A stretch of 64,000 nt of DNA from Trichobilharzia szidati (Eukaryota; Platyhelminthes; Trematoda; Strigeidida; Schistosomatidae): assembly GCA_944472155.2 (NCBI GenBank), contig OX235273.1:1895204-1959203 (forward strand), read 5' to 3'. Under the pieces are notes generated by a model that saw only the letters and a program-made list of their open reading frames with translations, had not been told where the DNA came from and made no database searches. This document shows, piece by piece, positions 12,648 to 60,297 of the stretch. The position numbers and the translations under genes were made by a program. Each line of letters starts with the position of its first letter. Position 1 is the stretch's first letter.

Positions 12648-13163
12648 GAACACGTGCAATAATTCGTCGAGGAGCTGCTAGCGTTGAACCAGCTGAAGAA
12701 CACAGAGACTCTCCTCGTGACGATGATGATGATGATGATAATGATCATGAGAATGCGTATGGTTTCCGTGGAACGGATGATAATATGAACAATAATACCG
12801 ATGAATTTCTTGTCAACTACAGGCTACCACGTAGTTCAACAGTTATAACAACAGTAAGCGGTGAACCTTTGCTTACATCGCCTGGTACACGATATCATGA
12901 TAGGACAAATGAAGCGACAATAGCCGGTGGCGGTGGCGGCGGCGCCGGAGGAGGAGGAGCAGGAGGAGGTAATCATGGCTATAATACACAAAATGAACAG
13001 TCAAATAAGCAAACACGTGCACATTCACATAATCGTTCCATTTCACCTTACGATAGACAGAGATCAAGAGAGGTCAACGATGTAGATAAAAGTCAACCTA
13101 GAAGAAGTACATATCTGTCCGCGACTAATAATAACAATAATAACAACAGCAGGAGTGGGTATA
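12648..13163 (+). CDS. TRPM channel linker exon (disordered, 172 codons)
   Basis: Internal coding exon. It is bounded by an acceptor AG at 12646-12647 and a strong donor GTGAGT at 13164. It begins after the first base of a codon and ends likewise (phase 1-1, 516 nt). Translation starts TRAIIRRGAASVEPAEEH and has an Asp run, Asn-rich parts, a Gly/Ala run near 12925-12970, Arg/Ser-rich stretches and a final Asn run. There is no recognisable domain; it looks intrinsically disordered. Downstream exons at 16676 and 22664 continue in phase, and the next exons in phase are TRPM exons once block 23853-60297 is flipped. In TRPM3 the corresponding place, between MHR4 and the ELMVWAVL-like motif, is a shorter charged linker. 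I infer cytoplasmic location. That it is coding is well supported by the duplicate copy; its assignment to TRPM is an inference. Confidence 0.75.
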
Positions 13164-13374
13164 GTGAGTTATATGATTGTTTTATTATTAACAGAGTATT
13201 ATGAATTTCATACAAGTGGCTGACATATTACATTTTTCTCACATACAGATTATTCGCTTTAACAGGAGCTCTTGTTTTTAACAGGACGAGGAAAGATGGG
13301 AATGCATCTAGCAAGCCTATAAGGTGAATTATGACTATACGTGAATACATCTGAACAGAAGGTGGTTGAATATT

Positions 13375-13500
13375 CTTACCCCTGTAACCTGAAGATTCTT
13401 GATTTGATCCCTAATGGAGTGATGGGTGTTCATTACTGGAGAGTCGCAAGCTAGAACGAACAAGGGCTGCCCAGTTCTCTATCATCCTTACTAAAATCCG
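13375..13500 (+). repeat. Degenerate tRNA/hammerhead-type repeat
   Basis: 'cttgatttgatccct' resembles a decayed box B. It is followed by 'cattactggagagtcgcaag' and 'ctagaacgaac', then 'ctgcccagttctc', the order of a family A hammerhead with a ruined core. The same remnant is in the duplicate at about 63000-63100. 13500-13970 holds no other feature. Confidence 0.4.
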
Positions 13501-13980
13501 CTGAATACAACAATCGATTTAGCATCCTCACACACCCTTTGAATACTTTCTTCATAAGTCAAGAAATGTTTGTTTGTAAATGCGTTAATTTTTCGGAAAC
13601 AATTTTATACTACTTTTAATAAAATTAGCATGAATGCATGTTATATTATTTGAACAAGAACTGAATGCTGCTTCATTTGTGCACATCATATTGAATGTCA
13701 AATTAAACTACTAATTGCTATTTGAACGTCAGGCATGAATGCATGCTGCAATAAGAAGGCTTAATTCATGTGAAATGTGTAATGCGTATGTATATAGGCA
13801 ACACATTTTGAACGTTAATCTCGCATGTACTGATAGTACATATTTATACAGGGTATGAAGAGTCAGAATGTTTAGGGGTGGGGTCAGGATCACAGATCTG
13901 AAATGAAAAGCAGAGTCAGAAAAACCCAAAAAACATAATCACGTAAAGTAAATCTTAGACATTTGTAAAACAACTTATAT

Positions 13981-14151
13981 TTGTAAAATTTCAGCCAGAC
14001 TGAAATGAGTAATTCCAACGTTTCCTGCGTTCGGCAAACTGGTCCGAACTTCTTCAGGGAAATTAATCGAAATTAACATAACAGAGGTTAGGACCAGTTT
14101 GTTGAATGAAACGTTGAAATTACTTATTTCACTTTGGCTGAGATTTTACAA
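13981..14151. repeat. Long inverted repeat (hairpin)
   Basis: The left arm 13981-14045 ('ttgtaaaatttcagcc', 'tgaaatgagtaattccaacg', 'caaactggtcc') pairs with 14091-14151 ('ggaccagtttg', 'cgttgaaattacttatttca', 'ggctgagattttacaa') around a spacer of about 45 bases containing 'gaacttcttcaggg'. The motif set resembles pLTR ends of Penelope-like elements. It is conserved at 63614-63784. Confidence 0.75.
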
Positions 14152-14394
14152 ATGTCTACTTCTCACTCGGCGCCCAATTATTTTGAAACTATTCGGTCAA
14201 ATCTTGATCACAGTTCATATGAATAAATCTTAGTTTTAAAGTGGGAATATCAAGGCGAGTTCACAGTGGTAACTAATAGTCTTTGAACTAATATGTGAAA
14301 TATATATATGATTTAATAGTGTGAAATATTCCCATATCATGAATTAAGAGTCAATCCGAAAGAAGAATATTCTTTTCAATAATTTCTCTTCAGG

Positions 14395-15310
14395 TTCTTA
14401 CAGTTATCAAATATAATATTTGTTGTCGTTACAATAATGGTCAGTTATGCGGCGGATACATTTTTTACGTAGAATAACAGATTAGTTATGGGGTGTCAAA
14501 ATAAATAGTCGTATTTGTGTGACAAACGTGCTAGGCTGAAATCGATTACAAAATATTGTAAAATGGGAAACAGTGGTGGTGATTAGTTATAATAGATTCG
14601 TAGAGTGTGGGGTAGGAAAATTGACAAGTCAGTTCAAGGTTATAAAAGGTGTCAGGTGAGTGGGCTAGTACAAAGGGGTCTGTGTTAAACAGAAGATAGT
14701 AAGACTGCAATGAGATGTTCATAATGAAATAACCAATGTGTGAAATGAAACAGGTGGAGGCATATATTGAGAAAAGAGATAATATCACTAATAATAAGTC
14801 CGGATAGTATAAATGAAAAATTCGATAGTATTGAGAGAATGTTTGAATGAAGGGTATAAGTTATGACGAATAATAATAATAATTGTAATAATAAGCAAAG
14901 AAAGAAAAAACCAAGAGGGTTAAGGGGAAGAAGCACTCTTGGTGAGAAGAAGAATCATTAATCCAAGTAGGGCCACTGTAGGAAAAGCGTCTGTAGGTGT
15001 TCTTTTTGGATACAAAGATGCGGTTTTGTCAATCTTATTGCAACAGCTTCAGCTATCTGTAGCAGACGTAAGCGAACTGTACGTGATAACGACTTTGGAA
15101 TTCGCTATATAACCCTGAAGGCTGTGTTGACGTCGATGCGATATCCACTATCGACCAAGTGTGACAGAATCGAGCTTTTTATGCATTTAATTTCCCTCAA
15201 ACCCATGAACGAACCTGCCTAATCGTACACCCCATATAACTCTTGAACCACAGGAACAGTTGAAACGGCATATGCATGACAACAAATATTACATTTTATA
15301 ACTGTAAGAA
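14395..15310 (-). mobile_element. Penelope-like element fragment with inverted ends
   Basis: Minus-strand sequence at about 14990-15190 reads, across small disruptions, SSILSHLVDSGYRIDVNTAF and later LLQIAEAVAIRLTKPHLCIQ, the GIY-YIG ORF tail. 'cttacagttatcaaatataa' (14397) reappears inverted at 15268-15302 as 'acattttataactgtaag'. Remaining ORF pieces are broken. Confidence 0.7.
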
Positions 15311-15459
15311 CAAATTCGCAATTGGCAGTTTTCACAGTTTGAGGTGGTGAAATTTCCCCACAGTTTCCTTTGGCAACCAAAATCATTCAGATTACAATTT
15401 GTAATCTGCTTTATACCATAACTGATAATCAAGAAAGTGAGCATATACTACTGATTGAC

Positions 15460-15860
15460 TGAATTCAGTAGTTGTATACCACTTATATCAACTAGTAGTG
15501 CCTGGTAGCCATATCGAAGTGACATAAATGTCGGATGGCCCTTTCTCCGGTTTGGAGTCGAGTTTATCAGTGGCGTGCACAGTTTGACTCTCTTAGACAG
15601 CTGAATCAGTTCAAGCCACGTGATCACTTTGCTAATTGAGAAAGTGGTTAAAGGTGTTAACAGCTCAACCAATTAGGAAGCCAGAAATTGTATGGTTTGA
15701 ACTGATTCAGCTGTTTGAGCTACGTCAAACCGGGTACATTACCGATAAGTTGGGGGCCCTAAATCAGCGAAATGGTTGTTTGGTGTTTAACTTACTTCCA
15801 TAATATGGTTAAGGAGCACTACTGATCGATGTGAGCAATATTCGACTGCTCATATAAGTC
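15460..15860. repeat. Unclassified repeat with internal inverted repeat
   Basis: A 17-nt exact inverted repeat, 'cagctgaatcagttcaa' (15599-15615) against 'ttgaactgattcagctg' (15698-15714), sits in a region whose outer parts ('gactgctcatataagtcaac') resemble 10045-10080 and 38700-38900. No ORF of substance; the family is unknown to me. Confidence 0.45.
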
Positions 15861-15919
15861 AACCAGAAGTCTGAGTTCTTTCTTAATGTGTTTTGGTAAA
15901 AGGGGCAGACAGCCTAACT

Positions 15920-16040
15920 ATTATTATTCCCTTGCGTTCCAAGTGGAACATAGGGCTTAAACAACACACCTCCAAGTTGTTCTGTTTTCTGCCGTCCTCT
16001 TCAGCTGGGTCCACGATTGACCCAGTTAACTAGTTAACTC
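15920..16040 (-). mobile_element. RTE-like 3' end fragment
   Basis: 'ttattattcccttgcgttcc' followed by 'agtggaacatagggctt' and 'cagctgggtccacgattga' gives the reverse-complemented AAT tail, 3' UTR and last coding part of the RTE-like family. Only the extreme 3' end was inserted. Confidence 0.75.
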
Positions 16041-16339
16041 CTTCAAATCATGTCAATATTTAGGTAAATACTAGGAGAACCGCATCACTAGCGGACAATA
16101 AACATGAGGAGAATTCAATGCGTTTTAATAAGACATTTAAGATGCATATCTGCAAGATATTTTGTAGTCATTTTGACCGAACTCTTTGCAAGCTATCGAG
16201 AATTATTGCTTCGGTTTTGAAACGAAGCGATTCATTTATTTGTTAGATAATTTAAGTCTCCCCTAACTGAGTCTTAGTACTCTCAAAACCTAAAAAATCA
16301 TCTGAACAAAACGAAGCCCATACTTATTTAACACAGTCT

Positions 16340-16545
16340 GCACCATTACACTAGTTACTAGCTAGTGTCCAATCAAAGTGGCCAATACAGTTCTACAGGA
16401 GGTTAGTCTTGAGCTTTGATAGCTCGATGGTAACGTCTATGATAGCAGCACTGGATGACCCAAGTCCAAATTTCAGAAGGGAAATGAGTTCCTTCAAGGT
16501 TGCAGATAAGCCTTGCTGACGAGTGCCTCCAAGCATCTAATACTT
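16340..16545 (+). repeat. Family B hammerhead-SINE, internally deleted
   Basis: Near-palindrome at 16349-16369 ('acactagttactagctagtgt'-like). A box A-like 'tagctcgatggtaacg' and decayed box B follow, then 'ccttcaaggttgcagataag' and CTTGCTGACGAGTGCC running straight into 'tccaagcatc'. The 3' half of the ribozyme (GAAA and stem III) is deleted, so it cannot be active. It lies shortly upstream of the exon at 16676. Confidence 0.7.
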
Positions 16546-16675
16546 TGCATAACGTCGGGTAAGCAAGGGATAAAATCTCTTCACAGACAACTGGTTTTCA
16601 GTTCAGAATATAAAACTTGACAAATATGAGTAAATTTTACTTATATAATTGTTATTATTTCTTTTGTGATAAAAG

Positions 16676-17272
16676 ATTCTCGCAACAGACATAGTCGACG
16701 TTCATCATCACAAACCAATGAACATGATATGTTGATTCCAGGTCAACCGTTAATATATAACGCCACGATAACATCTGTTAACCGATCAGGTCATGGTTCA
16801 CGTGGACCATATACCAGTCTTGGTCCAGGTCATTTTCGTATAGCTGGAAAAGCACCATTAGCTTACGATACTACCTCTGTTGGAACTACAAGCCCAGTTC
16901 AAACACCTAGACCAACTATGCAAGATGCATTACAATTTTCATTTGAAAATGATCGTGTACAACGTAATTCACTATTGATTTCATCAAATCAAAATGAAAA
17001 ACCATTGAAACCTGTACTGTTCGAAGATGAAGTGATCAATAAATCCTCGAGATCATGTTTTACATCATGTCTCCAATGGATTTCATCATTTTTCCGGAGA
17101 TTATTTGGTCGTAGCGATGAATCGATGAAATCTAGGAAATCTGGCAATCTTGGACAAGATCCAGGTGGGATTAAAGGACCTAAAGAGTTTGCAACGCTTC
17201 GAGCAATGGCCGCGTTAGCTGCAGCGACAGCAGCAACAGCTGTAGCCGATCCAACAAAAGCTGCTCAGGGAG
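16676..17272 (+). CDS. TRPM channel linker exon 2 (199 codons)
   Basis: Internal exon with acceptor AG at 16674-16675 (after 'ttatttcttttgtgataaa') and donor GTAGGT at 17273. Phase is 1-1 and length 597 nt. It joins the exon ending at 13163 without a frame change (A plus AT gives Asn). The product is Ser/Arg-rich at first (SRNRHSRRSSSQTNEHD). In the last third it has a Cys-containing amphipathic stretch, SCFTSCLQWISSFFRRLFGR, that could bind membrane or be lipidated. It then has an Ala-rich helix-like segment (AMAALAAATAATAVADPTKA). No known domain is recognised. I infer a disordered cytoplasmic linker of the TRPM channel, uncertain because the connection crosses an assembly gap. An independent lineage-specific neuronal protein is the alternative. 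Confidence 0.75.
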
Positions 17273-17552
17273 GTAGGTCAGCTCAGTTTTGTTTTTATCC
17301 CAAATGAATTCCTGTCCTCTTTGTTTCCTGATTTTGCGTTAGGACGGTTTGGGTTTCAGGAATAAGACAAAACTTAATAAAGCTGAGCAGCCTTGAAGAC
17401 AAGATTTCACTGCGCATAACGCCAGAATTCACAGCTTGATCAAAAATGAGTATCAACCAAATCGCGTCTTTCATAACTGGGTCCAGTCGGGTAGACCGTT
17501 GATGAGCTTTAAAAACAGAGCTAGAAAGCACTACTGTTTGACTTATTATATA

Positions 17553-19085
17553 TTATTGCTATTGTTCCCTTGTGTTCTCAGTGGAGCATAGGGCTTCATC
17601 AGCATGTCTCTGCTTTGTCCTATTTCCTGCTGTCCCTGTTAGCTGGGCCCACAATTGCCCATAGTCTCTTATCTCCTCCAACTCAAATGATCTCCTCCTT
17701 GTTACCTTCAGCCCTATGCCCAACTCTTCATTTCCTATTAGGGTTCCACTAGAACAATGGCCTAACTAATGCGTAACGGTCTCCTCCGTGGCGTGGGCCC
17801 AATCCATCTTCATTATCTTCTACATATTCGTTGAGCGGCAGGTTCTTGATTAGTTCGTGTCCATAGTTTCTTGTTGCTAATTCTTTCTGGACGGCTGGCC
17901 ATTTGATCCTCAGTATGTAGCCAGGGAAGGTAACTGTTGGTGAAAGTCTGTAGTAAGCTGTTGGAAGTGGTTTTCGTGATACGCATATCATGTTTCTGAA
18001 CAATATAGAGAACCTGAGTGACTAGGCGTTTGTGTTGAAAACCTGAATGTTGTTCTTTATGCTGTGTGCAGAAGATTTCCAAACTGATTTTAGAGTGATG
18101 AAGGCGTACGATGGCTTTCTCATCCTGATTGGCTCTGACATCTTTACATGTCCCACCGCCTGTAGTTGAAACGATGCTTCGTATATGAGTGAGGGAGGTA
18201 ATCTCTGTCAAGTTTCTCCCGTTAATGGTGATTGGTGTTGGTTGTTGTTACTGTCGCTGTTTGTTGGTTATCTACATCACCTTCGTCTTCTCTATAATCA
18301 CCTGGATTCCTGTTTTCGTTGCTTACCTCTTCTGCCAGTTTGCTGGTTTTCGCCCGTAAGTCTTCGAGATTGTTTGGCATCAGACATAAATCATCCATAC
18401 CCAAAATACAGATCTTTTAGAGTCTTCTTATCGGTTAGTCCAACCTATTTCGGTCTTTTCGCTCCCCATGTACAGTCTGACGCATAATCCAGTTCACCAC
18501 AATTAAGAAAATATCATCGGTAATTATAAACAGTCTTGTCTTACTCCTGTATTCACTTCGAACGTTTTGCTGAGTTTTCCGTTTTGGATCACCTGACACT
18601 TGACATTCTCATATATCCAGCTGTTGAATGAAGTTGGCAAAGACTTGAGCACTTCACGCCATAGTGTTGAAGCGGTTTCCAAATTACTTCTCGGTCAGCA
18701 CTGTCTGTTGAAGGCCTTTTCGAAGTCTATGAAATTAAAGTACATATTTGACTGGCATTCTATGCTTCGTTCGATGATGATGCAAGGAGTTGTAACTTGA
18801 TCAGCACATGATTTGTCTTTCCTGAAACCAGCTTGTTCCATGGAGGCGGCAGACGTCTGCATCTAATGCTCCCCTTTATTATCTTCCAGGATGACGCGAA
18901 TCGGTAATTTACCTGAAGTGGACAACATCATTATTCCACGCCATTTCTTGCACGGGTGTGAGTCACCCTTCTTTGGTAGTTTCACAAGGTAATCTTTCTT
19001 CCAATCAGTAGGTACATTTTCTTCCTGCCAAACGTTTTCCAATAGTGGCGTGTTTGGAAGGAAGAAAAATGGCTTCCAGCTACCT
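17553..19085 (-). mobile_element. RTE-like retrotransposon with reverse transcriptase relic
   Basis: Longest RTE copy here. Reading on the minus strand: RT segment EQAGFRKDKSCADQV (about 18840-18800), motif A NFIDFEKAF (18736-18711), the catalytic motif changed to GMDD in ILGMDDLCLM (about 18400-18370), the post-RT segment (18211-17900), then the coding tail, 3' UTR and a short tail at 17553. Frameshifts and the altered catalytic motif show it is dead. It is 5' truncated near 19085. Confidence 0.85.
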
Positions 19086-19574
19086 ACCTAGCATACAGAT
19101 ATTCCGTCTGAAAGTGTGTATTAATAATGTAGACATTTGACAAAATTGGAGTTCTCCAGAACCTGAAATCTCACAAATGTATCCAACTACCCTTCAGTGA
19201 GCACAGTAACTGCTCAAAAATCACTCACTTTCGCACAAAACATAACATAAGGTTATTTAGCGCTCCTGTTTGAGGGGAAAAATTACACCACTTATTCTTT
19301 CTTTAAGCACTGATCGATCGTTTCTCTCCATTGAATGTATATAAAATGGCGTGAAACGCAAACAAATCTATTGCTTTTATTTTGCTATCAGTTATGGGAG
19401 AGAATTCAGCAAAGTTATTTATAACTCGGGTCCCAGTTGAAGTAAATTTCTTCGCCTTAATTGTTTTATAAATGCAGACGAAAAACAATGACAATTATTG
19501 GATATTTCATATACTAAACGCAATTAAATTTCCACTTGAAACTTTTGTGATTGTTAATGCCGTTCTAATCGGCT

Positions 19575-19583
19575 TTAGTAGTA

Positions 19584-19621
<38 letters not shown>
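19575..19621 (+). repeat. (AGT)n microsatellite
   Basis: About 15 near-perfect AGT units with one interruption (AGA). In one plus-strand frame it makes a poly-Ser chance ORF, which I do not consider a gene. Confidence 0.9.
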
Positions 19622-19623
<2 letters not shown>

Positions 19624-19693
19624 GGTTTTCCTCACCATCAAAAATATTATTACTTCTTATCTTGTGAACTACTTTTCTACCTGAGTGAACCGA

Positions 19694-20260
19694 TTATTAT
19701 TACTACTATTTTTGTTCCCTTGGTTTGCAAGTGAATTATAGAGCTTTAACAGCACATCTTTATTTCATCCTGTTCTCTGCATTCCTCTCTAGCTGGCTTC
19801 CTGATTGGTCATAGTTCTTCACCTGGCCCACATCAACTTCGGACGCACCACTCGTAGTTTCCAGTTTGTGTCAGACTTGGGTCATGGCCTGATGCGCGAT
19901 GTTATTCGGCTGGCCCATCAGAGAGTGCTTAATCCATCTCAATTTTTCTTCTGCGTATTTGTTGAGCAATAGGTTCTTGGTAACGTCGTGACGGCCATTT
20001 GTTGACTCAATGTGCTCATGGTTGTCATCGGGGTGGCTGTAGTAGATTTCTGACTCTCCAGCTGGCAGTTTTGATAGCCCGCATCCATTCTACCTGCTCT
20101 CACAGATTTCTAGCACTCCTAAGTCACATCTCATTTCTTTGGCGACCTGAGCAGCCTTCATAGCTGACTTCGTACATTGTACGAAGACTCCACATTCACA
20201 TTCTTATGACTAATTCCACATCTGCTGACTGGATTCTCGAAGGCTTTCACCAGCCCGCAT
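19694..20260 (-). mobile_element. RTE-like retrotransposon fragment, strongly decayed
   Basis: It starts 'ttattattactactattttt' then 'gttcccttggtttgcaagtg' (reverse-complemented tail and 3' UTR). Recognisable islands follow: 'ctagctggcttcctgattgg', 'cggctggcccatcagagag', 'ttgttgagcaataggttctt'. The right boundary is vague. 20260-20840 contains nothing else I recognise. Confidence 0.6.
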
Positions 20261-20839
20261 CATTTGTTGTGTGTTGAATTTTCTGTGTCAGTTTGATTGA
20301 TTTTCCGGGTTAGGGTCGTCAGCCCTAAACCCAATACTCCCTCTTTTCCTGAGATAGTTAGTGGCTAGAAAACTATCGAGCTAGTGAACTGGACGAGACT
20401 GAGTGGACCAATAGAACTATTATTTATGTTTCTTTTATGGTATAATTTTCTGTGCACATGTTTGCAGTTTTGTGTATATGCGTTCCCTGGTTTTTAGAAC
20501 ATTTAGCCTATGTATATGGAAAAACGCAGTGCCCTTTTCCATCGTTTGTAGGCACTCATTTAAGCATATTTCATGAGTACACATTCAATGTCTACAAACT
20601 GACTGTCATTTAAACAGGTTCAAGTATTTGTCACTATGGCTTTTGATAAAAAAGACATCACAGATCTTATGATAATGTGTTTGACCTAACATTTTAAACA
20701 CTTTACCAATATAAAGTCTTAACGGATTACATAACTGACCGTACGCGACTATATTTTTCGCTATCGTGGGTGGACATAGTTAGCCTTCTCCTAATGTTAG
20801 GACCAAAACTGATTCTTTGTGGTCTTTAAGAAACGCGCG

Positions 20840-21355
20840 GTCACAAAACTCTGCAAAGACACGAAAAAAGCGAATATTTTTCGATAAATTTGTGGTTCTG
20901 TTAAACAATGATAACATCAAAAACTCAGACATGCCTCAATAATGCCGTTAGGCAACTATTCAGTCAATGTAAGTTTCTAAGTACAAAAGAAGCTCTTAAA
21001 ATTTAATAGAATATTTCCAACAAGGTGGGATCAAAACTCTGTCTCTAAGGATCACACGCCTATGCTTCCCGCCAAAACCCCAAGGTCATTCTGACCTTGA
21101 TTCACTCAAACGAAATCACACAGTAAAACAACACATTATCAATATATCAGAGAACCACAAAGAGAAGCATTAAAATTTCAGATTAAACGAGGACAAAGAT
21201 AAATGATAAGGATGAAGTCGAGAGATGATTTGCAAACATCAGAATAACGACACACAGTCTAGGGGAAAAACAGATAATAATTACAAAGTTAATTGAAATT
21301 TCCAAGTAAGTATCAATGGTATAATTAGGTCGTTCAGGAAGTATTTTTCAAGCAA
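20840..21355 (+). repeat. Unclassified repeat, copy 1 of a direct pair
   Basis: It shares an ordered series with 21790-22260: 'cagactcagacatgc'-type start, 'aacaaggtgggatcaaaact', 'aaggtcattctgaccttga', 'ccacaaagagaagcatt', 'aattgaaatttccaagtaag', 'ttcaggaagtatttttcaa'. Copies are clearly diverged. They could be terminal repeats of a decayed element or independent insertions. No ORF between them has recognisable motifs. Confidence 0.55.
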
Positions 21356-21789
21356 TTTTTCCATTACACCCAATACAGCTAAGAATGCGCTTGCATGTAG
21401 CTACTGGACTCCAGCATACAAAATGTATCTCAGTGTACATTGTATGCGATTTATTTTATCAGTTTTAATTTTGATTTCTCCTCTGTTTCATTTTATTCTT
21501 TTAGCAAGCGTTTCTTATATTATATACAGTAACACCGTCATTAATTAAGTGCTAGAGTGACCTTGAAATTGAATGTGCCGCCATTTTATATGGTTGAGTA
21601 AAACAAATAAGCCATAAAAAATTAGGAAACATCAGTCCTAGGCTGCTCTGTTTCAAATCACTTAAATATATTTCAACTTCCATTACTTTGTACACAATTC
21701 AATCTCGTATTAGTACACTCTGTAACGACCAAACTCGAGGCGTTGAGGTCTGAACGTGGCAAAACGATGTTTGCGATCTACTGGATTGC

Positions 21790-22260
21790 TGACCAAAACT
21801 TCCTTCAGACTCGCACAGTCACAAAATGCCCCACTGACAGCAAAATTTGTTTATTTACAGTTAAATGCGTGGTTTCATTCAACAAGCATAACACATCAAA
21901 ACATAAAATTACCTCAACAACTGCTGTTAGGCAGATCCAATAGCTTGTTGACTGAGAATCAAGAAGAATATACCCAGCAAGGTGGGATGAAAACTTTGTC
22001 CGCAAGAATCACACACCAACAATCCTTGCAGACAATTCAAGGTCGGAAAGACCTTGACTCATTCAAACACAACCACAAAGAGAAACATGAAAATCAGAGA
22101 TCAAACATAAACAACGACAACTAACGCATGATATGCAAATGTCAGAAGAAGGAGTAAAGAGTAAGATAGGTGTAGAGTCGATTGAAATGTCCAAATAAGT
22201 ACGGAAGTTGCAATTGTATCTTTCAGAAGGGATTTTGCAAACAATTATTCGATTGCATGC
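21790..22260 (+). repeat. Unclassified repeat, copy 2 of a direct pair
   Basis: Matches 20840-21355 in the same orientation: 'cagcaaggtgggatgaaaac', 'aaggtcggaaagaccttga', 'ccacaaagagaaacatgaaa', 'attgaaatgtccaaataagt', 'ttcagaagggattttgcaaa'. A 122-codon open stretch across it is of biased composition and probably fortuitous. Confidence 0.55.
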
Positions 22261-22663: not shown

Positions 22664-22696
22664 ATTTGCTTCTTCCTCCAGGTTTCCTTGATCCAG
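22664..22696 (+). CDS. TRPM microexon, 33 nt
   Basis: Preceded by a long pyrimidine tract (22600-22640) and 'aaaatctatttcag', followed by donor GTACTA. Phase 1-1, encoding (D)LLLPPGFLDP plus the first base of the next codon. It joins the exon ending at 17272 in frame (G plus AT gives Asp). Its final G joins in frame to the microexon at 58366-58340 or directly to the TRPM exon at 53367-53255. Small size makes it less certain than the long exons, but splice sites, length divisible by three and matched phase all agree. Confidence 0.6.
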
Positions 22697-23237: not shown

Positions 23238-23344
23238 AGTGTGTATAGTTTTCTTGTGGTTTTAACAGCTTTCATGTTGTTATGCTAATCAAAGTGAATA
23301 GGTTAGTGGAAAAGCATTCAGAAACAAGGCAGGCTCAAGTGGTC
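23238..23344 (+). repeat. 107-bp segment repeated inverted at 60191-60297
   Basis: It matches the reverse complement of 60191-60297 over its full length with three mismatches by eye. Ten further bases precede the N gap here, while the other copy abuts its gap directly. I read this as overlapping ends of two contigs that belong together in the opposite orientation. Confidence 0.85.
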
Positions 23345-23354
23345 ATTTTATTCT

Positions 23355-23852
23355 NNNNNNNNNNNNNNNNNNNNNNNNNNNNNNNNNNNNNNNNNNNNNN
23401 NNNNNNNNNNNNNNNNNNNNNNNNNNNNNNNNNNNNNNNNNNNNNNNNNNNNNNNNNNNNNNNNNNNNNNNNNNNNNNNNNNNNNNNNNNNNNNNNNNNN
23501 NNNNNNNNNNNNNNNNNNNNNNNNNNNNNNNNNNNNNNNNNNNNNNNNNNNNNNNNNNNNNNNNNNNNNNNNNNNNNNNNNNNNNNNNNNNNNNNNNNNN
23601 NNNNNNNNNNNNNNNNNNNNNNNNNNNNNNNNNNNNNNNNNNNNNNNNNNNNNNNNNNNNNNNNNNNNNNNNNNNNNNNNNNNNNNNNNNNNNNNNNNNN
23701 NNNNNNNNNNNNNNNNNNNNNNNNNNNNNNNNNNNNNNNNNNNNNNNNNNNNNNNNNNNNNNNNNNNNNNNNNNNNNNNNNNNNNNNNNNNNNNNNNNNN
23801 NNNNNNNNNNNNNNNNNNNNNNNNNNNNNNNNNNNNNNNNNNNNNNNNNNNN
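23355..23852. other. Assembly gap (498 N)
   Basis: Unknown bases. With the 499-N gap at 60298-60796 the near-500 size suggests a fixed scaffolding placeholder, so true distance and orientation across it are not established. Apparent ORFs through N are meaningless. Confidence 0.98.
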
Positions 23853-23975: not shown

Positions 23976-23989
23976 AAGTTATATTAAAT

Positions 23990-39901: not shown

Positions 39902-40049
39902 CTATACAATATCAAGAGAAAAAGGATAAAATATAAAAGCAGTTATTGAACAATACATAAATGAAAACCAATATGAACAATACTGAGATGTATTGAAATA
40001 AGAAATCATGAGAACTGTACCATTATTCGGTTCCTGAAAGGCATGCTTT

Positions 40050-40275
40050 TTCTTTCACGTTCCCCAGTGGAACATAAGGCTCCAAGCTAGTGGCTTGAAG
40101 TTTTTGTAGCAGTGTTTATTTTACAGGATCGGGTTGCTAGCCTGATGCCCAACCTTTCCTCATCACCAGCATTATTTCTGGCTTAGCGAGGTAAAGGAGT
40201 GCGTCGGCCGGGGATCGAACCCATGACCATGTGCATGGTCGGCGAGCGTCCTAACAGCTATACCACCGACGCACG
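40050..40275 (-). repeat. tRNA-derived SINE family 1
   Basis: Complete copy in a TRPM intron; head 40275-40200 with box B 'ggttcgatccc' and body hairpin 'caagctagtggcttg'. Confidence 0.85.
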
Positions 40276-40959
40276 ACATTGGAAATAGGGGACATTTATT
40301 CCCAAATATAAATTTAAAACAAGCAACAAATGGTAATAAAACAGGATTTTTGATGAATTGATCAAACTTTAGTAGAACTTCTCTGATGAATACTCTCCAT
40401 ACAGTCCTACTTGTACTATAAGAAACATATAAGCAGATATGTGACTAATAAATGAGCCCCAATAACCGAATAATGACGAAACAAGAGGTGAAAATGTTTT
40501 GCAAATCGAATTCAGCCTACAAAATACACTTACTGTAAGGCATTGCATTTATCAAATGTGTACAGGCAGTTATCATGAATGATTTTAAGTCATTCCTCAT
40601 TAGAATCTGGTGATTATAAATGGCTGAACATACTTTCACTTATCTGAAGTTAAACAGAGACGTATTCAGAATAACTCAACTCATGCATGAGAATCGTTTC
40701 AAGAGTTCTTTTAACTAGGGGAGTCACTGAAAACAACCATTTAAAAGATGAAAGCAATACACATTCATGGTATAATGAGGAGTGCAGCTTATGAGAGCTC
40801 AATAGGTGATAATTTGATCACTGTGTTACTGCGCTAATAATGGTCAATGTCGTCAACCTTTTCTACAAAGTGGATGGAAGCCCCATCAATGTCTATGACA
40901 GTAAGAATGAAAATAAACCTAGCAGAATAACAAACACTATGGGATGAATTAAACTAATT

Positions 40960-48398: not shown

Positions 48399-48632
48399 TT
48401 TTTTTATTCCTTCACATTCCCAGTGAAACATAGGGCTTCAAGCTAGAGGCTTGAAGTTTCTGTAGCAGGTTTTATTTTTACAGGATTGGGTTGCTAGCCA
48501 CATGCCCAACCTTTCCTCTTCACCAGCATTATTTCTGGCTTAGCGAGGTAAAGGAGTGCGTCGGCCGGAGATCAAACCCCGGACCATGTGCATGGTCGGC
48601 TAGCGTCCTAACCTCTATGCCACCGACGCACA
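48399..48632 (-). repeat. tRNA-derived SINE family 1
   Basis: Complete copy in a TRPM intron about 200 bases from the exon at 48831. Flanking 'ttggctagcaat' occurs on both sides (48388-48399 and 48633-48644), a likely 12-bp target site duplication. Confidence 0.88.
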
Positions 48633-48830
48633 TTGGCTAGCAATGATTGCTGTTGATCACTACTCACAAAATATCCATTTTAGACGAATGAATAGCTACA
48701 CATTACGGTAAGTCGATACATGGTGAGTATTCTTCATTAACACTAGGAGAAACAGGTGAATACCATTCAAACCGTACAGTTTATTCTTTACAAGAAGAAA
48801 AGCCTTAGAAATGATAAAAAGCCAACTTAC

Positions 48831-51069: not shown

Positions 51070-51250
51070 ATTCCCCGTAGAACATAAGTCTTCAGGCTTC
51101 AGCTTTGCAGTATCAGAGGCTGCTAGCCTCACACCCACCCATTTCCTGTTTATCGGACTTACAACTGGCTAAGGGAAGTAAATGTTTGCACAGGTGGGGA
51201 CTCGAACCCTGTACGGTGTCCAAGTATTTTACCGCTGAACCACGCTAAAA
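51070..51250 (-). repeat. Diverged tRNA-derived SINE
   Basis: 'ggctgctagcctcacaccca' body, then inverse box B 'gggactcgaaccctgtacgg' and inverse box A 'accgctgaaccacgct'. The head resembles an independent tRNA-like sequence; the body is related to family 1. Confidence 0.65.
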
Positions 51251-51599
51251 ATACTGCCTGTAATGGCAAAATAACAAAAATATTCATCAATGGAAACCTT
51301 GAAACCGTCCCTAAAATTCATCTTGTCCCATTGAAATGCAGAGATAAAGCACAATCACATGAAAGTCGAATATTTTTTCCAATTAACAAGACTAACAGAC
51401 GAAACTTTTAGAATATGATGAAATGAATCAGATGCGGAAATCAATCAATGTTTTGTGGTGGGTGATAAGCAAAGGTGGGAGGAAGATCTGTATTACAGTG
51501 GGATTAGAAGCAGTCACGTCGAAACAGAATAGTTCGGCTTCTTACAGCTGAGCCACTGAACCCAGGGGCTAACTAGGTCACTACGAGTAAAAACGAACT

Positions 51600-51900
51600 T
51601 CTATCAATGAAGTTCGCAGCGTAGCCAACATATCTAATTGGCTCAACGTCAAGGTACACTCGAAATTGTTGTTATTAGATGATTGGAGGCATTCAGCAGG
51701 AAGCCTTGGGTATAAGTTTCATGCCTGCTGGCACTGGTCAGCTCAGTGATAACATCTCCAACTGCAGAGCTGCGTGACTAGGGTTCGAGTCTCAGAGAGG
51801 AAATAAGTTCGTTCAAGATTAGAGATACATCTTGTTGACTGGTGAGTATCGAGATTCACGAAACCCAGATCCGAAGCTTCCTAAAATCAACAGTTCAAAG
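51600..51900. repeat. Family B double unit, strongly decayed
   Basis: Minus-oriented half 51660-51745 ('gcctgctggcactggtcagc') and plus-oriented half 51750-51890 ('gggttcgagtctcagagagg', 'cttgttgactggtgagtatc', 'cacgaaacccagatcc'). GAAA is kept in the right half but the CUGAUGA core has an insertion. Confidence 0.6.
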
Positions 51901-52079
51901 TGTACTACGAGGATGATTCACCTAGAATGATGACCACATTTCAAAGATGACCGATAGTCAATTCAATCTGCACCAAACGAAGGACTAAACACAATTTGTC
52001 AACTCTTGTATCTTACCTATTCTACCTTACTGCTCCCCGTTAGTCTTTCCTGGTCTACTGAAAAAGGACTATACCATCC

Positions 52080-53170
52080 TGGGAAGGATGTTGAAGGTAG
52101 TTAGTAGGACTAGTGGTGTAAAACTCAGTCAGCTCGTCAGTACATTAATTAATAGGTATCTGAATACATGCAGAAAATGGTCTAAAACCATACTCTCCGA
52201 CCCCCAACACCCCCTATATTCCCAACTCTCGCCTTGTATCTCATCAAGTAAAGCCAGAAATCAGTATAAAATCATCTATGCTCGTACAACCAAGTACAGG
52301 AACTCAACGATACCATACTTGGCCCGTGTTCTAAGCGACAGAGACAATGTTAAGCGTGAAACCTATGACTTGCTCTGTTGTTATTAACATAATTTTAGGC
52401 TCTTTTATTTCTCTCTTATTTTGTATTCTATAGTGAACTCCTTCTCAAACATACTTAGCTACCTAAATTGTTAACATTGGCTTCCTTTTTTGTACTTTAC
52501 TGTATTCCTTCTTTTGTGCATCTACTGGTTCCGACTATATTAGTACTATGAGTATTACAAAATTTTCCTGTAATTAACCATCACGTAATTATTAGTTTTG
52601 TGGTTGCTTTTTTATATTTTTTATTTTTTTTCGGCAATATTAACTGACAATTACTGGTTGTGAACACCATTATCACCATCTTAAAATGTTGTATTATGCA
52701 GGATTACTCACACTACTACTAGAAACACTGCATTAGACCTGACAATAAAAAACAAAACAACAACCCTGAAATGTTATTTTATGATTGTTCAGAGTTGTTT
52801 CAACCAAATTAACTGATCAACTTGGCGATAAACATTATTAAACATCATTTCATAACTTATTATATGACTATAGCTTTACTGTCACCATGCATAATCATAT
52901 CATAGCTTCCACTACCCAATACTGAGTTATTAGTATATGCTGTTTATTTTTCTTTCTACTTCTTGGTATTTTTTCGCATTTTTTAAAAATTATTTTGTAT
53001 TTTTCCTGTTGTTTTTTGCTGTTGGTGTCTTTATATTTATTTATTTTTTTGAAATATTCCTTTTAAATGTTTGATAAATGTTAGATGCCAATATTGTAGA
53101 TATGTGCTGAAAATCCCACACTGTACCACTAGTACTGTTTCTGGAATAAAGCAAAATTATTATTATTATT
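52080..53170 (+). mobile_element. Non-LTR retrotransposon, C-terminal ORF and long 3' UTR
   Basis: 52088-52387 is open and ends with KIIYARTTKYRNSTIPYLAR and VLSDRDNVKRE. That form ('rt.+yrnS.iPy..r.L') is typical of the end of CR1/jockey-type ORFs. About 700 bp of AT-rich 3' UTR follows, ending 'actgtttctggaataaagca' and a (tta)n tract. 5' truncated, in a TRPM intron. Confidence 0.7.
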
Positions 53171-53254
53171 GTTATTATTGATAGTAATTAATATTATACT
53201 ACTAATAAGTACTATCATTTCGTAGATAATAATAATAGTAATAATTTTAATTAC

Positions 53255-53367
53255 TTTTTCCATTGTCCAAAATAATTCAGCCATACGTAGTTTACCGACC
53301 AGAATTGACCAGATTAAAAGTTCTCTAGCTGGACGATCCAACTGAATCGATTTCGTCTGTTCTTCAT
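53255..53367 (-). CDS. TRPM channel exon: RELLIWSIL...FWTMEK
   Basis: 113-nt exon, phase 1-0. Acceptor AG at 53369-53368 ('acacgtctatag'), donor GTAATT at 53254. Encodes EEQTKSIQLDRPARELLIWS then ILVGKLRMAELFWTMEK. This is the conserved TRPM element 'ELmvWAvL..r..MA..FW.hg' (TRPM3 [20 protein letters not shown]). The first codon is split: any preceding exon must end in phase 1. Exons 22664-22696 and 58340-58366 both do. The acceptor choice is inferred from phase and from loss of similarity upstream, where the frame stays open to about 53446. Confidence 0.92.
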
Positions 53368-53445
53368 CTATAGACGTGTGTGTACGTATATATTTATTAT
53401 GCCCGCCATGCACACATTGCGTTGAAGAAAAGATTTTTTTATTCA

Positions 53446-54589
53446 AACCGACGGACGGATGACCACGAGTTTTGTTTCATGTGTATATATACCGAAGTTA
53501 ATCATAAAGCGGAAGCATTGATGCATTGATTGAACAAAAGTATGGCGCGGAGACAAAACAGGACATTGTCAAAGAGAGAAGGAAGAAAATATATGAAGAA
53601 TAGGTTTAGCATCAAAAAGTGAAAGACAATTCAAGAAAGAATAGGGAAATGGTACAGATTAGTTAAATATACACACTTCAAAACGTTGTTAGCGTAGGAG
53701 CATTGAATGTTGTTAGCGGACATTTATACACATACATATACCGAATGTTAGTATGATTATTAATAATAACAATAATTAGGTCGAATCACACGATTAACGA
53801 GTTCACTAGCCACTTTAAGCGCCCATTTACAAATGAATACTTTTTAGAATAAAGACATTGACGTGGGAGAACGGGATACAGATGGGTTAATGTTAACACA
53901 CATACACACACAAGCAGACAAACACACGCAGAAGTACTTAGCAGGGCTGAGGAGACAATGAGAAGGCGAAACTGAGACAAACTGGGCGAAACACGAAATT
54001 ATGGAAAAACAAAACAAACAAACAAACAACTGTCGATGATTAATGATCGTGCACAAAAATTGCAAAATGATGACTTTGAGATCATCACTTCATTCATCAT
54101 TTTGTTTCTGAGACACTAGACAGACAAGGAGACAGAGAGTTGAGAGAGAGAGTAAGAGTAAAAGCACACACAGTTGAAAAGCGAAAATTTATGAATTAAG
54201 AGACGTCTGATGTTTTTACCATTAGCGTGCATAGTGGAAGGGTATAGCCTTTTTTTTTAACTAGTCACAATGATTAAACACAATAAAAGAAAAGAGGCAT
54301 AATGAAGGGTGAGATAGAAAGGAAAATTGTCAAGCGTTCGCTTGTCTGTGAGTGTATTATGGAATCGATGCCTATTACGTAATTATACAACATATCAATG
54401 CGGAAATGAACAGTCTTCACTTTTGCTTTGTAACACATAATTAAGAATTCAATGATGAAAACATTTGATGCGCACTTCTAATTAATGAGACTGTATTCAT
54501 AATTTATTTTAGAGGTATTCTATTAAAATGTGTTTTAGTTTTTCATAAATTTTGGTATGCTAAAGGAATAAACAAGCAAAACACTGAAG
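53446..54589. other. Intron-like DNA
   Basis: Simple repeats (ca-rich 53897-53935, 'acaaacaaacaaac' 54010-54030, ag-rich 54120-54160). No coding segment or known repeat recognised. Confidence 0.4.
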
Positions 54590-55225
54590 ACAGTTAGACA
54601 GGATGATAGAACTTTTGATATTATCAGTTTATAGGGGATTAAAGTTTGTCAGTAAGGTAAGTCGTGTGCCATTTAGTCAGCTTGTTACTGCACTAGTTGA
54701 TAGACACCTGAACTCACGTGAGAAATGGTCCAAATCGATACTTGGCTGACTGTCAACACCCCTTCTATTCTCAACTCTCCTCGCCTTGTATCTCTTCGGG
54801 TAGGACTTGAAGTCATTATAATACGAGGTTATATGCTGGTACAACCAAGTAAAGAAACTCAACGATACGGTATTTCGAGCACTTTTCATGTGATTGAGAT
54901 AACGTTAAGCGAGAAATCTACGACTTACTACATTCATAAGCAAAATAATCGGCTCTTTTTATCCTCTCCTATTTGTAATCTATGGTGACATCATTTCAGT
55001 CAACTTTTAACCTACCTACTAGCTTTATTATCATTATTTCACACTTTTTTTTACATGTCTGAGCTTATTGTCACTGCTAATACCAAAAAGGCTGCGAATA
55101 TCAATACTGAAATATTATTTTTTTAATATTCGTTTTTCCCGTTGTCGAGTAAATTAGATGAAATATTGTATGAAATGCTGAGAATTCCACACTGTATTAC
55201 AAGTACTGTTATGCAGTAAAGAGAA
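54590..55225 (+). mobile_element. Non-LTR retrotransposon 3' fragment, decayed
   Basis: 'gactgtcaacaccccttcta' and 'aactcaacgatacggtattt' align to 52195-52330. The 3' end 'gctgagaattccacactgta' / 'caagtactgttatgcagtaa' matches 53105-53150. Frameshifted and shorter than the copy at 52080. Confidence 0.7.
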
Positions 55226-55234
55226 TCCCTGGCC

Positions 55235-55515
55235 ACATGATTTTATTATGAGCTGACATTGGTCAGAGAACTATTGGAAAACCTTCAGGGAGTAGTGAAC
55301 AGCTGTTTGGTCCCACTAGTTTGGGACTAGTCAACAGTACGCACCAATCGCCAGGGTTCAAACCCAGGACCTTCCAGTTACAAGGTGAGCTAGCTGATAG
55401 ACCACTAGGCCACTGGGACCTGACCCAACGGACAGCCCATGAATTCTAGCTTCTGGCAACTCATGATGAAATCCTGTGTCCAATCAATCAAATCCCTACA
55501 AACCAATACTTGAAT
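55235..55515 (-). repeat. Family A hammerhead repeat, minus unit
   Basis: 'gagctgacattggtcagaga' terminus; relic on the minus strand TACTG-TTGACTA-GTCCC with a broken GAAA; box B inverse 'gggttcaaacccaggacc'; right terminus 'aatccctacaaaccaatact'. The second arm is missing. Confidence 0.65.
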
Positions 55516-55709
55516 GTGAATCATTACCACTGAAGATAGTAAGACGGGATGAAACAACTTTTGATAATTTTAGTCTATAGATTGTTTTAATCAAATATGA
55601 ATAACTCTGACAAGAAACATCGTTATTTCTCCCTAAATATGCCAAAAGGTACATATGACTGTAACATATGAAGAATTTCCAGTGACATACTACGTCATTT
55701 TGTGACATT

Positions 55710-55860
55710 AATGGTACGTCCGTAGTTCAGCGATAGAACACTCACTAACTACACCTCACCCGGTCCGGGGTTCGATCCTCGGTCGGCAGACAAACTCTAG
55801 GTGAGGCTCGCAATACCACCCCGCAAAAATAAAACCAGTGCTATCGAAACTTCAGAGGTC
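55710..55860 (+). repeat. tRNA-derived SINE, plus strand
   Basis: Head 'ggtacgtccgtagttcagcg' with box A-like 'tagttcagcgatag' and box B 'gggttcgatcctcgg', then family 1 type body 'aggctcgcaataccaccccg', 'agtgctatcgaaacttcag'. It lacks the gene-like cloverleaf of a true tRNA. Confidence 0.7.
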
Positions 55861-56399
55861 ATCTACCTACAACCAAGGCCATTGGAATCCATCTGAAGAA
55901 GTCAGACCTGTGTGTTCAGAGGGACTTCTTGCAGCCAGTTTCTATAACTTAGACATCGGTCGTTACATGGACGTAAATAACTGACAATTTCTTCCCCCCC
56001 CCCCAAAGGCTTTAAATCTTTTGTAAGTTATCACTGTCCAGGTCATTTTATTTCCCTGACTGTTTTACCTTCAATTGCTTGTTGCGTAATCGATTTCAAC
56101 ATTCAACGACTTCTTAATTACTGCTGTTATTTTTCGAAAATTACGTCATACGCGATGCACTTGCGTAATTTTTACAGTTATTCCTACCCTTTAATTATTG
56201 TATTGACTTTCTGGTTAATTGTCACCCTTGTTTGATATGCTGATACTGACTTATTATTGTGAACAAACTTAGGAATTTTTGTATCGCATTAAAAATGTTA
56301 CCTTTATTAGAGTAGAACCCCAGCTGAGGATCTAAGTGAAAAATAAACATCTCAATCAATTCGTTTGTCTTCTAAATGTCAAAATGGGCATTTGTTTTC
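55861..56399 (+). other. Shared unclassified fragment and C tract
   Basis: 55860-56000 ('ggccattggaatccatctga', 'ctgacaatttcttcc') resembles 25845-25960. A run of about ten C occurs near 55995-56006. No coding signal. Confidence 0.4.
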
Positions 56400-57295
56400 A
56401 TAACTGTTATTTCTTTCGGTTCTAGCTGCAATATTGGGATTTAACACCCCATCTGCACTTTGTCCTGTTCCTTGAAGTCCTCTTCATCTGTCTTCATGAC
56501 TGCCCATCGTTTTTCGTCTCCTCTTCACACGATCTCTTCCATATTATCCTTGAGTACCCAACTCATCTTTCCTCATCCAGATTCCATTTGAGGACTGGCC
56601 TGGAGCGCGATGTCATTCGACGATCTCCATGGTGTGTGTTCCATTCATCTTCATTTTCTTCAAGATATTTGCTGGGAAATATATTCTTAATTAATTCGTC
56701 GCAAGAATTTGCTATTGCCAGTCCTTTCTGGACAACTATACGATCTTCAATATGGAGCGACGGCAGTCGTTGGTAAAGGTTTTCAGTAGTCTGTTGGATA
56801 TGATTTTCGTGACGCTTTCAACAAGTTCCTGACCCATACAGAAACACTGACTTACTTGCTTAACATGAGCTTTGAAAATCCGAATCTTCTTCTTTATGCT
56901 GAGTGCGGAAGATTTCCAAACCACTTTCAGAGTGATGAAGGAGTGCCTTGTCTTTCCAGTTCTGGCTTCGCCGTCCTCATCCGTACCATCTGCCTATAAT
57001 TGAAACTATGATGCCTAGATAAGTAAAGGAAGTAGCCTCTTCATATTTCCCCTGTCAATAGTGATTAGCTGTCTCCATTACCTCCGCCTTCTCTATGTTT
57101 ACTAGGAGTTCTGCCTTTGCTGCATTTTCTCCCAGCTCGTTGGCTTTTGCCTGTGAGTTTGGGAATTCGTCTGCTAAGTCCAGATCTTTTGCAGTTTTCT
57201 TATCTGTCCAGTGCATTTCATTCTTCTTGCTCCCCAGATTCTTCCACGCAATCCAGTCCACCATCCGTAATAGTTGATGCACTGAAATCAAAATA
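56400..57295 (-). mobile_element. RTE-like retrotransposon fragment
   Basis: Minus-strand reading: from 57291, WTDKKTAKDLDLADEFPNSQ (catalytic-region homologue with ADD changed to ADE), NELGENAAKAELLVNIEKAE, then post-RT parts and 3' UTR near 56420. Frame breaks and the altered catalytic residues show it is inactive. Confidence 0.8.
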
Positions 57296-58339
57296 TATCT
57301 CAGCGGCAGGCAATCAACATAAACTACTTATAAGGAAACAAATAAGTAGTGTGAAGTTTATCTTCACTAGAAGAATTCGATATTCCGCATTTAGAGATGC
57401 TAGAAAAAGAAATAGAACCGGAAGAAGTATCCTATCCAGAAAGTCATTAAAATACAAATTACCTTTGCATAAAGTGAACTGAACTGTAGAACTTTAATTT
57501 CACCTAATAAAAAGTCTTACTACTTCTAACACAATCCGATGTTAGTTTGTTTCCAAACCAGTCATTTTTAACAAAAAACAAAAGACACTTGAGAATAATG
57601 AACATTGAAATTTTAATCAATGAAAGTTTTTGTTTTAATTTCACCATAATTAAAGTAGGCGGAATTTTCGACTTCACACATTAAAGTGTTGTTGTTATCT
57701 CTTTGTATCTTTATATATATATTTTTTAATGATTTTTCATGCAGTTACTGATGGATTAGTTATTTATTTAATTGAGCATTTCAGACATCACTGTAGGCAC
57801 ATAAAAAATCTCCTTCTTGGGAACAAAGGAGGTAAAATAGAGGGGAAAAAAGGAGGTTTTACGAGGAAATACCAAAAACTGGGAAAGCTAACAGTCAGCT
57901 AACATCTTTCTTTAAAGCAAGCAAGCTCACAAATACACAAACATGTACAAATATTTACACAAATGCAGATACAGACATAATATACACAATAGTTACATTG
58001 GGAACCCCGCCCCCCACTCACACCTACAAACACACACAGAGAAGCGGACAAAATACACTGACGCACATAGAGTTCTCTTGAGGTCGGAGCGCACAAGAAC
58101 GAGACATGGGAAGAGGAGGATTGGGAGACATTAATGGTTTCAGTTAATTACGCAAAGGAATAAAAGCAAAAAGAGAATGAAAGCAAAAACATGCAGAAGT
58201 TAATTTTGATCGGTAAAAAATGGAACAGTACATGAATTTCTCATTGTTCTTTTTTTAAATGGAATGAGTGAGTGAATCACGTTGTTAGTTAGACAATAAA
58301 TAGGTAAGTATAGATTTTAATAAAAGCAAAGGTACTTAC
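57296..58339. other. Intron-like DNA
   Basis: Simple AT-rich and (ca)-rich sequence. A plus-strand open stretch to 57482 is Lys/Arg-rich without motif. No supported gene. Confidence 0.35.
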
Positions 58340-58366
58340 AGTCTTCTGTAGCAGTATCTGTATGGT
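58340..58366 (-). CDS. Candidate TRPM microexon, 27 nt
   Basis: Flanked on the minus strand by acceptor 'gaatgttacacctag' and strong donor GTAAGTAC. Phase 1-1: with a G from the previous exon it reads DHTDTATED, ending in the first base of a Tyr codon completed by the exon at 53367 (T plus AT). It is acidic, like the linker of vertebrate TRPMs just before the WxxL motif. Very short, so chance is not excluded. Support is the perfect splice-phase fit between 22696 and 53367 after flipping the block. Confidence 0.45.
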
Positions 58367-58489
58367 CTAGGTGTAACATTCTTACTGTAAAATGTTTATT
58401 AAATACAAGTTAATGGTGTTAAATACTAACGCTTTATAATTACTATTTATGTATTTGTATTTATATATATGTGCATGCTAGGTAGAATG

Positions 58490-59040
58490 AGTTGTGGGTG
58501 AGTGATTTAGGCGTTCAGTTTTTAACCAGGGAGTCAAGAGTTCAAACACCACTCTACCTACCGAGGCTTGGACATCCAGGTAGTATCACTAGCCCCCCCC
58601 CCACGTACAGTAGCTGTAACTCATTGCTAGCAGCATAGGAGTGCAAGTGGCTGTTGAGTAGCATTCACGTTCACGAAAACATAGCACCAGTCAATGAAGT
58701 CTGCAACAGTTAGTCTAAGCTACGTAGGAAGGCGTAGACTTCCTGACTGGTTGGGGTCCTCGGGATGGTAAAAACCAATGGTTGAAAACAATTGGTGACA
58801 TGACTCAAAATCGTTCTCAATGGCTGGTGCAGATGCATCCACTCCTTGTGACTTATGATTTCCAATGAAACTGTTTTGTTCTTCGTTGTTACTATTCCTT
58901 TGTCTCACACCTCTGTTTACTGTCTATATTATGCATTTCTCCTACTTTCTTCTCTTCCTTTGTGTGCTACATGGAGTGTGGTGACTTGAACTGCCGCACA
59001 TATGTGCAAAGTTCTATGTCGAAAACCGACCGACCGACGT
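58490..59040 (+). repeat. tRNA-like unit joined to unclassified repeat
   Basis: 58490-58560 is tRNA-like ('gtgatttaggcgttcag', 'agagttcaaacaccactc'). 58640-59040 is the uninterrupted form of the repeat split at 26040-26830 ('ctgactggttggggtcctcg', 'ctttgtgtgctacatggagt'). Ends in (ccga)n at 59025-59038. Confidence 0.6.
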
Positions 59041-59589
59041 TCACCGTAGGTAACCATGTTTCTTAGGTGATTCCTATGCTGTAATTAGTGAATCCATGAC
59101 AATATTTTCGCATCATTACTGTCATTATGTAAGGCTGATCAATGGTCAGCTTAGGCGTATAGCCTCAAGTGAGTACCAATTACTTATCAAGGGTAGATTG
59201 AAGTATCCAGGTACCTTTTCTGCAGCTAAATTAAACTAAACAGACGCATACTTTAGAAGAATCGCTTATCGTGACAGCTTAGAGAGCGTGATGTTCTCTC
59301 GACAGAAGAAAATGTATAAATATTTTCCACTGTCACACAAAATTCAAATTATCTTCCATGTTTATAATCAGTTATTCCGGGGATGACATTAACCAGTGGG
59401 CTGCTAAAAATTGAGCTGTAATTAACCTCCATCATTGTATATAACATAGAATGCCTCTTCTTCACTATATTTAACCTATTAAAGTATGGCCTCTAAAAGT
59501 ATATTTTACTCTCGCGAGTATTTGAAATGTTATCCTCAATGGATAGCAGCTTATCCCAATACATGAGATGATCGTCCCCAGGTGGTGTC

Positions 59590-59840
59590 CCACATTCACA
59601 AAATGTACTTATGAACCTTTTTATAATTGCCATTCACCAACAAAATGTCGTGTACATCTCGAAGGAGACAAAGAAGAGATGTCATAATGGATTAGTCAGG
59701 TAGAACTCTGTCACAGAGTCTACCGTCAATTAATCTTTCATTTCAAGATCCTAGAACACGATGCAATAAATTCCACTGAAAATTCTGTACACTTTATAAA
59801 CAAAATTCACAATAAAGCTGCTATTATTATAATTATTACT
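59590..59840 (+). mobile_element. Penelope-like RT relic and 3' end
   Basis: 'aattgccattcaccaacaaa' and 'ggagacaaagaagagatgtc' match 41050-41105 downstream of the RT motif A there. 'ccactgaaaattctgtacac' / 'cacaataaagctgctattat' (59771-59825) matches 41680-41735. Coding potential lost. Confidence 0.6.
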
Positions 59841-60190
59841 CATGTAGAACAGAGATGTTGGTGTCATTTCAAACAACGGATAAATAATATTCAATTCTGC
59901 AGAAGAATGCAGTTTTCTTCTATGTATATCGAAAGTTAATGTAACTAGATAGAGTTCATGTGTGCTTTGAGTCACCTCTAGGCCGGCTAACCACCACTCA
60001 AAACTCCACCCGCATTGACTCCTTTACTCCATTATTTGAATCATCCCATAAACAAGTCTCTGATAGAATCTATCTCAATCAGTTTCAATTAATCTCTTGT
60101 AAGTGACCAAAAGTGAGCTGTAACCAGTGATATTCAGCAATGTTATAGCTGACTGGTGATATATTAAAACAATTCGACCTGATAGTGACC

Positions 60191-60297
60191 GACCACTTGA
60201 GCCTGCCTTGTTTCTGAATGCTTTTCCACTACCCTATTCACTCTGATTAGCAAAACAACATGAAAGCTGTTAAAACCACAAGAAAACTATACACACT
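60191..60297 (-). repeat. 107-bp segment, inverted copy of 23238-23344
   Basis: Contig end before the second gap. Its reverse complement equals 23238-23344 except for three substitutions. Taken as a contig overlap showing that the block to its left belongs, flipped, after 23344. Confidence 0.85.

Follow-up and report, generated by a model that had tools for sequence, protein, structure and literature searches.

A TRPM2-like channel gene of Trichobilharzia szidati that appears split between strands probably reflects a retained second copy of the locus with a reversed contig

Trichobilharzia szidati is an avian schistosome (a bird blood fluke) of the family Schistosomatidae. We have analyzed a 64-kb stretch of its genome (contig OX235273.1; hereafter the window) in which the exons of a predicted TRPM2-like ion channel gene occur partly on the plus strand and partly on the minus strand. 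An ordinary gene is, in all probability, misrepresented here. The assembly would contain this locus in two copies, one of them intact from 60797 onward and the other, at positions 11427-60796, inverted in its right part. Most likely, the assembly process and not a biological rearrangement gave this known gene its split and inverted appearance.

Two runs of N, 498 and 499 bases long, divide the window into three contigs, which are referred to here as the left contig, the block and the right contig. Eleven TRPM exons were identified in the window using tblastn with proteins of relatives together with checks of exon borders, three of them on the plus strand and eight on the minus strand (Table 1). 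All 11 are bounded by an AG acceptor and a GT donor, none contains an in-frame stop, and the reading phase agrees at 10/10 successive exon joins, including the join that crosses from one strand to the other. Splice sites, phase and relatives guided a manual choice of some minus-strand borders, after initial choices had not all fitted. Mapping of relatives by tblastn performed far better than Pfam scans of 15-kb frame translations, which were weakly sensitive to short exons. The exon at 37697-37612, between 39806 and 36443, gave no tblastn match when pieces of Schistosoma rodhaini or Clonorchis proteins served as the query, and was found with P0016, a deposited protein of T. szidati. Outside of one duplicated exon, 10/10 exons (501 aa, counted in whole codons) are reproduced exactly in P0016.

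Homologous proteins join the exons of the two strands in series. Nine homologues from five species were compared, these being the long candidates that matched exon 16676-17272; a single S. rodhaini contig encodes four of them as isoforms. In all nine, exon 16676-17272 is followed by exon 53367-53255, either directly or past a short insert. The insert consists of DLIIPSNFFEP and VKMIHLDHPDMVTED in series in two S. rodhaini isoforms, P0004 and P0006, and the window encodes matching peptides, namely DLLLPPGFLDP on the plus strand of the left contig and VRMLHLDHTDTATED on the minus strand of the block. These two microexons are used together in T. szidati P0016 as well. They are missing from the other seven homologues, which include the S. 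rodhaini isoforms P0003 and P0005, where they are skipped, and Opisthorchis felineus P0010, which has a different insert of five residues. By this comparison the microexon pair is an insert of the TRPM linker that is conserved and alternatively used, a small but real finding. Because the microexons are adjacent in the S. rodhaini isoforms, the block is read as reversed relative to the left contig, and this is the strongest evidence that the end of the left contig leads into the right end of the block. After reversal, the two microexons lie ~2.5 kb apart (648 + 1807 bases). The exon used to collect the homologues is 73% identical to its counterpart in S. rodhaini, 77% in S. curassoni and 96.5% in T. 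regenti P0011; being exact in P0016, it points to T. szidati and away from Schistosoma and T. regenti. Five shorter proteins also matched it; the two that were mapped, P0011 and P0012, end at or near the end of this exon and are uninformative on exon order.

The contig ends agree with the microexons and the phases. Positions 23238-23344 of the left contig and the reverse complement of positions 60191-60297 of the block are identical at 104/107 bases, and these ends overlap only once the block is reversed, ten bases at the very end of the left contig aside. With up to three mismatches allowed, the first 32 bases of the overlap occur at only two places in the window and in 0/100 shuffles, and no further partner of the overlap was found among the 40 best of 159 self-comparison pairs (E up to 1e-10) and the listed pairs of the right contig. 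The window is rich in repeats, with 37 inverted pairs of at least 60 bases, so that an inverted pair alone is unremarkable; what is remarkable is that both of its arms lie at gap edges. The chance of such a placement is ~1.3e-6 for a pair put down at random (3 of 2,000,000 simulated), and ~5e-5 such placements would be expected among 37 random pairs. The reversed segment has a gap on each side.

Much of what a sequence-only reading of the window had put forward is borne out by these results. That reading had treated the plus- and minus-strand exons as one gene, as the homologues do, and had counted 11 exons, three plus and eight minus, that fall into a single frame after a flip of the block; it had also described two near-500-N gaps bounding the minus-strand block and a 107-bp overlap with three mismatches, and had remarked that the ten bases after 23344 fall outside of the overlap, where we see the same misfit. 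Its orientation of the block relative to the left contig stands. Its start of the first minus-strand exon, 58366, should be 58384, because P0016 and S. rodhaini encode the longer form (58384-58340, 45 bp).

The right contig alters the picture. Its sequence from 60797 to 63993 is a second copy of 11427-14353 in the left contig, and the alignment begins at the first base after the gap, where 60797 pairs with 11427; the two copies are collinear up to the contig edge. They are 93.2% identical outside of the exon that they contain and 97.4% identical within it, with 16 length differences, the largest of 262 bp. Both exon copies are open, and they differ by ten silent and two amino-acid-changing codons among 163 aligned, in addition to two in-frame gaps. 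Neither copy looks decayed, since silent changes prevail and the other ten exons are exact in P0016. Conservation at the protein level would fit alleles or young duplicates, but not a decayed copy. As a separate observation, the 262 bp are found only in the right copy, at ~61178-61440, and repeat copies elsewhere in the window overlap them; the difference may represent a deletion in the left copy.

P0016 uses the duplicated exon in its right-hand form, which is matched exactly, whereas the form in the left contig is not. Residues 1-17 of this protein correspond at 100% to positions 55597-55648 on the plus strand inside of the block, followed by a GT donor, and no other match to the 140 bp around this segment was found within the window. 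The P0016 gene model appears to run rightward, past the end of the window: it starts on the plus strand in the block and takes up the exon of the right contig, and the block's own TRPM exons are on the minus strand, so in a model confined to one strand the downstream exons of P0016 would have to be at plus-strand positions past 64000. The arrangement has probably turned the segment at 55597-55648 into a false exon.

The reading that we favor is as follows. The right contig, from 60797 onward, would start the copy used by P0016, which we infer to continue undisrupted along the plus strand past the end of the window. Positions 11427-60796 would be an uncollapsed second copy of the TRPM locus assembled as a separate contig set, most likely the other allele and less likely a duplicate. 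The right part of this second copy would have been inserted backwards between placeholder gaps, placing its exons on the minus strand. Alleles are favored for two reasons: the homology reaches the contig edge, and draft fluke assemblies retain haplotypes, as passages of a Schistosoma mansoni study describe (PMC10916369). At a divergence of 6.8%, three or fewer mismatches in the 107-base overlap between the left contig and the block have a probability of 0.063, and these two contigs may, as a weak inference, come from one haplotype.

Several points weigh against this reconstruction. A divergence of 6.8% outside of the exon is much for two alleles of one species, and a real duplication or material from a divergent lineage could lie behind it. 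Positions 23345-23354 fall outside of the match, so that the left contig and the block do not form a simple overlap. The intact downstream copy is deduced from one annotated protein, P0016, and the exact matches suggest, as a further premise, that this protein derives from the same assembly as the window.

The divergence of the copies, together with the open and conserved state of both exons, would also suit a genuine partial tandem duplication of the TRPM gene, in which two diverged copies in one genome are combined with an orientation error in the assembly. We consider this unlikely, although it is the foremost of the alternatives, given that the right contig is homologous from its first base onward, which is what overlapping allelic contigs would show. 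The proteins bear on it as well: among ten (the nine relatives and P0016), exon 16676-17272 occurs once in each, and exon 12648-13163 occurs once in four and was undetected in the other six at E 1e-3. None of these proteins shows the duplicated region twice; this counts against a repeat within a single transcript and goes no further. The protein searches with exon 16676-17272 covered lengths outside 700-1100 aa, and the search that yielded P0016 as one of three proteins was aimed at the microexon region only; a separate deposited protein based on the left copy may have escaped these searches.

Slightly less credible is the version in which the locus is single-copy and a flip of the block suffices to mend it, as the sequence-only reading had proposed. 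It accommodates the overlap, the phases, the microexons and the relatives, but after the flip the contig that follows would still repeat the left contig together with its exon, and it is this repeated copy that P0016 uses. Least credible of all is a real inversion, in which the 107 bp would form a genuine inverted repeat and recombination would have flipped the segment in one or both alleles: one repeat arm does lie on each side of the block in the present arrangement, and the ten misfit bases, otherwise unexplained, would then belong to the other end of the segment, but gaps and contig ends are found at both of the presumed breakpoints, and the inverted exons are intact and protein-identical to P0016, which is unexpected for a long-broken copy. 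A natural inverted TRPM allele standing beside an intact copy, with its linker exons and microexon 1 parted from the channel exons, is thus improbable.

We therefore retain an uncollapsed second copy with a reversed contig as the preferred explanation, and turn to the gene itself. Two of the exons match separate, collinear parts of PF25508, a TRPM2-like MHR domain; the exon at 44.9 kb scores 31.6 bits (cut-off 27) and the exon at 53.3 kb scores 22.7 bits, which is below the cut-off. P0016 as a whole matches PF25508 at 99.4 bits and carries the ion transport domain PF00520 at residues 650-918, of which only the start lies within the window. The TRPM2-type channel structure 6co7 is the best PDB match both of one exon (E 6.5e-11) and of P0016; the PDB matches of another exon are weak (E 0.13 and above). 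On these matches, the gene is a TRPM2-like channel gene of flukes. A SLOG (LSDAT) N-terminal domain was not found in P0016 or in S. rodhaini P0004 and was found in Clonorchis P0008, from which P0016 differs in this respect. Its absence from P0016 is no evidence, because P0004 also lacks it; the domain would be expected upstream of the exons in the window, as a C-terminal NUDT9-like domain would be expected beyond the window.

Table 1. Positions of TRPM exons, contig ends, gaps and duplicated stretches in the 64-kb window
Feature	Position	Strand	Basis
First copy of duplicated stretch, contains TRPM exon	11427-14353	+	Aligns to 60797-63993
Left-contig copy of TRPM linker exon, phase 1 to 1	12648-13163	+	tblastn to S. 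rodhaini P0005 158-309 and T. szidati P0016; not exact in P0016
TRPM linker exon, 198 aa	16676-17272	+	tblastn; exact in T. szidati P0016 from residue 183
Microexon 1, 33 bp, final exon before left gap	22664-22696	+	Exact in P0016; S. rodhaini P0004 counterpart DLIIPSNFFEP
Left-contig end overlapping right end of block	23238-23344	+	104/107 to reverse complement of 60191-60297
Ten non-fitting bases	23345-23354		Overlap comparison
Gap, 498 N	23355-23852		N run
Block: contig reversed relative to left contig, eight minus-strand TRPM exons	23853-60297	-	tblastn, border and phase checks
TRPM exon, S1 and following by resemblance	32971-32843	-	tblastn, borders, P0016
TRPM exon, start of S1 by resemblance	36443-36350	-	tblastn, borders, P0016
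TRPM exon	37697-37612	-	Exact in P0016 from residue 586; found with P0016 as query
TRPM exon	39901-39806	-	tblastn, borders, P0016
TRPM exon, PF25508 positions 203-257; best PDB match TRPM2-type channel 6co7	44903-44678	-	Pfam, PDB, borders
TRPM exon	48931-48831	-	tblastn, borders, P0016
TRPM exon, start of MHR4 part (PF25508 positions 129-170)	53367-53255	-	Pfam, tblastn, borders
First exon of P0016 (17 aa), probably false, on strand opposite to the TRPM exons of the block	55597-55648	+	100% match to P0016 1-17
Microexon 2, 45 bp, first exon from right end of block	58384-58340	-	Exact in P0016; P0004 counterpart VKMIHLDHPDMVTED, directly after microexon 1
Block end overlapping left-contig end	60191-60297	-	Overlap comparison
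Gap, 499 N	60298-60796		N run
Second copy of duplicated stretch (right contig)	60797-63993	+	Aligns to 11427-14353
TRPM linker exon, right-contig copy, used in P0016	62272-62763	+	Exact in P0016, left copy not

Two further features of the window were noted. Dispersed repeats of ~230 bp with a tRNA-like GATCGAACCCC motif are located at 2633-2862, 3873-4102, 11931-12162, 40047-40276, 48404-48633 and 61560-61789, and form a family that we take to resemble a short interspersed element. At 56853-56939 on the minus strand, a Pfam match to DUF6451 (PF20049, E 4.9e-07) occurs amid broken reading frames.

The use of these results lies mainly in annotation, given that a false exon made by the arrangement appears to stand at the start of P0016. 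It would mislead counts of the copies of this gene in the genome, as well as comparisons across blood flukes of TRPM channels, among which the praziquantel target is probably to be counted.

The gene in the window is probably the orthologue of TRPM_PZQ of S. mansoni (Smp_246790). According to passages of one source, Sm.TRPM_PZQ has 36 exons over ~150 kb and a product of 2,268 aa, while TRPM_MCLZ has three exons (PMC11731825); the exon number of Sm.TRPM_PZQ is given as 38 in a passage of another (PMC10916369), and a third mentions splice variants affecting its N-terminal homology region (PMC6901322). The window gene resembles TRPM_PZQ in being large, in having many exons and in the presence of PF25508 and PF00520 in P0016, and is unlike the three-exon TRPM_MCLZ; the many exons fit the former rather than the latter. 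With regard to the assembly, the portions of the S. mansoni study cited above report that version 7 of that genome had 312 unassembled scaffolds, many of which were alternative haplotypes, and that remapping on version 10 left a single locus where the praziquantel mapping had given two (PMC10916369). The arrangement proposed here would resemble the uncollapsed haplotypes of draft fluke assemblies in that redundant allelic sequence is retained alongside the primary copy. It differs from the unassembled scaffolds of S. mansoni version 7, as described in those portions, in that the redundant copy lies inside of a scaffold and adjoins the other copy, with one of its pieces reversed.

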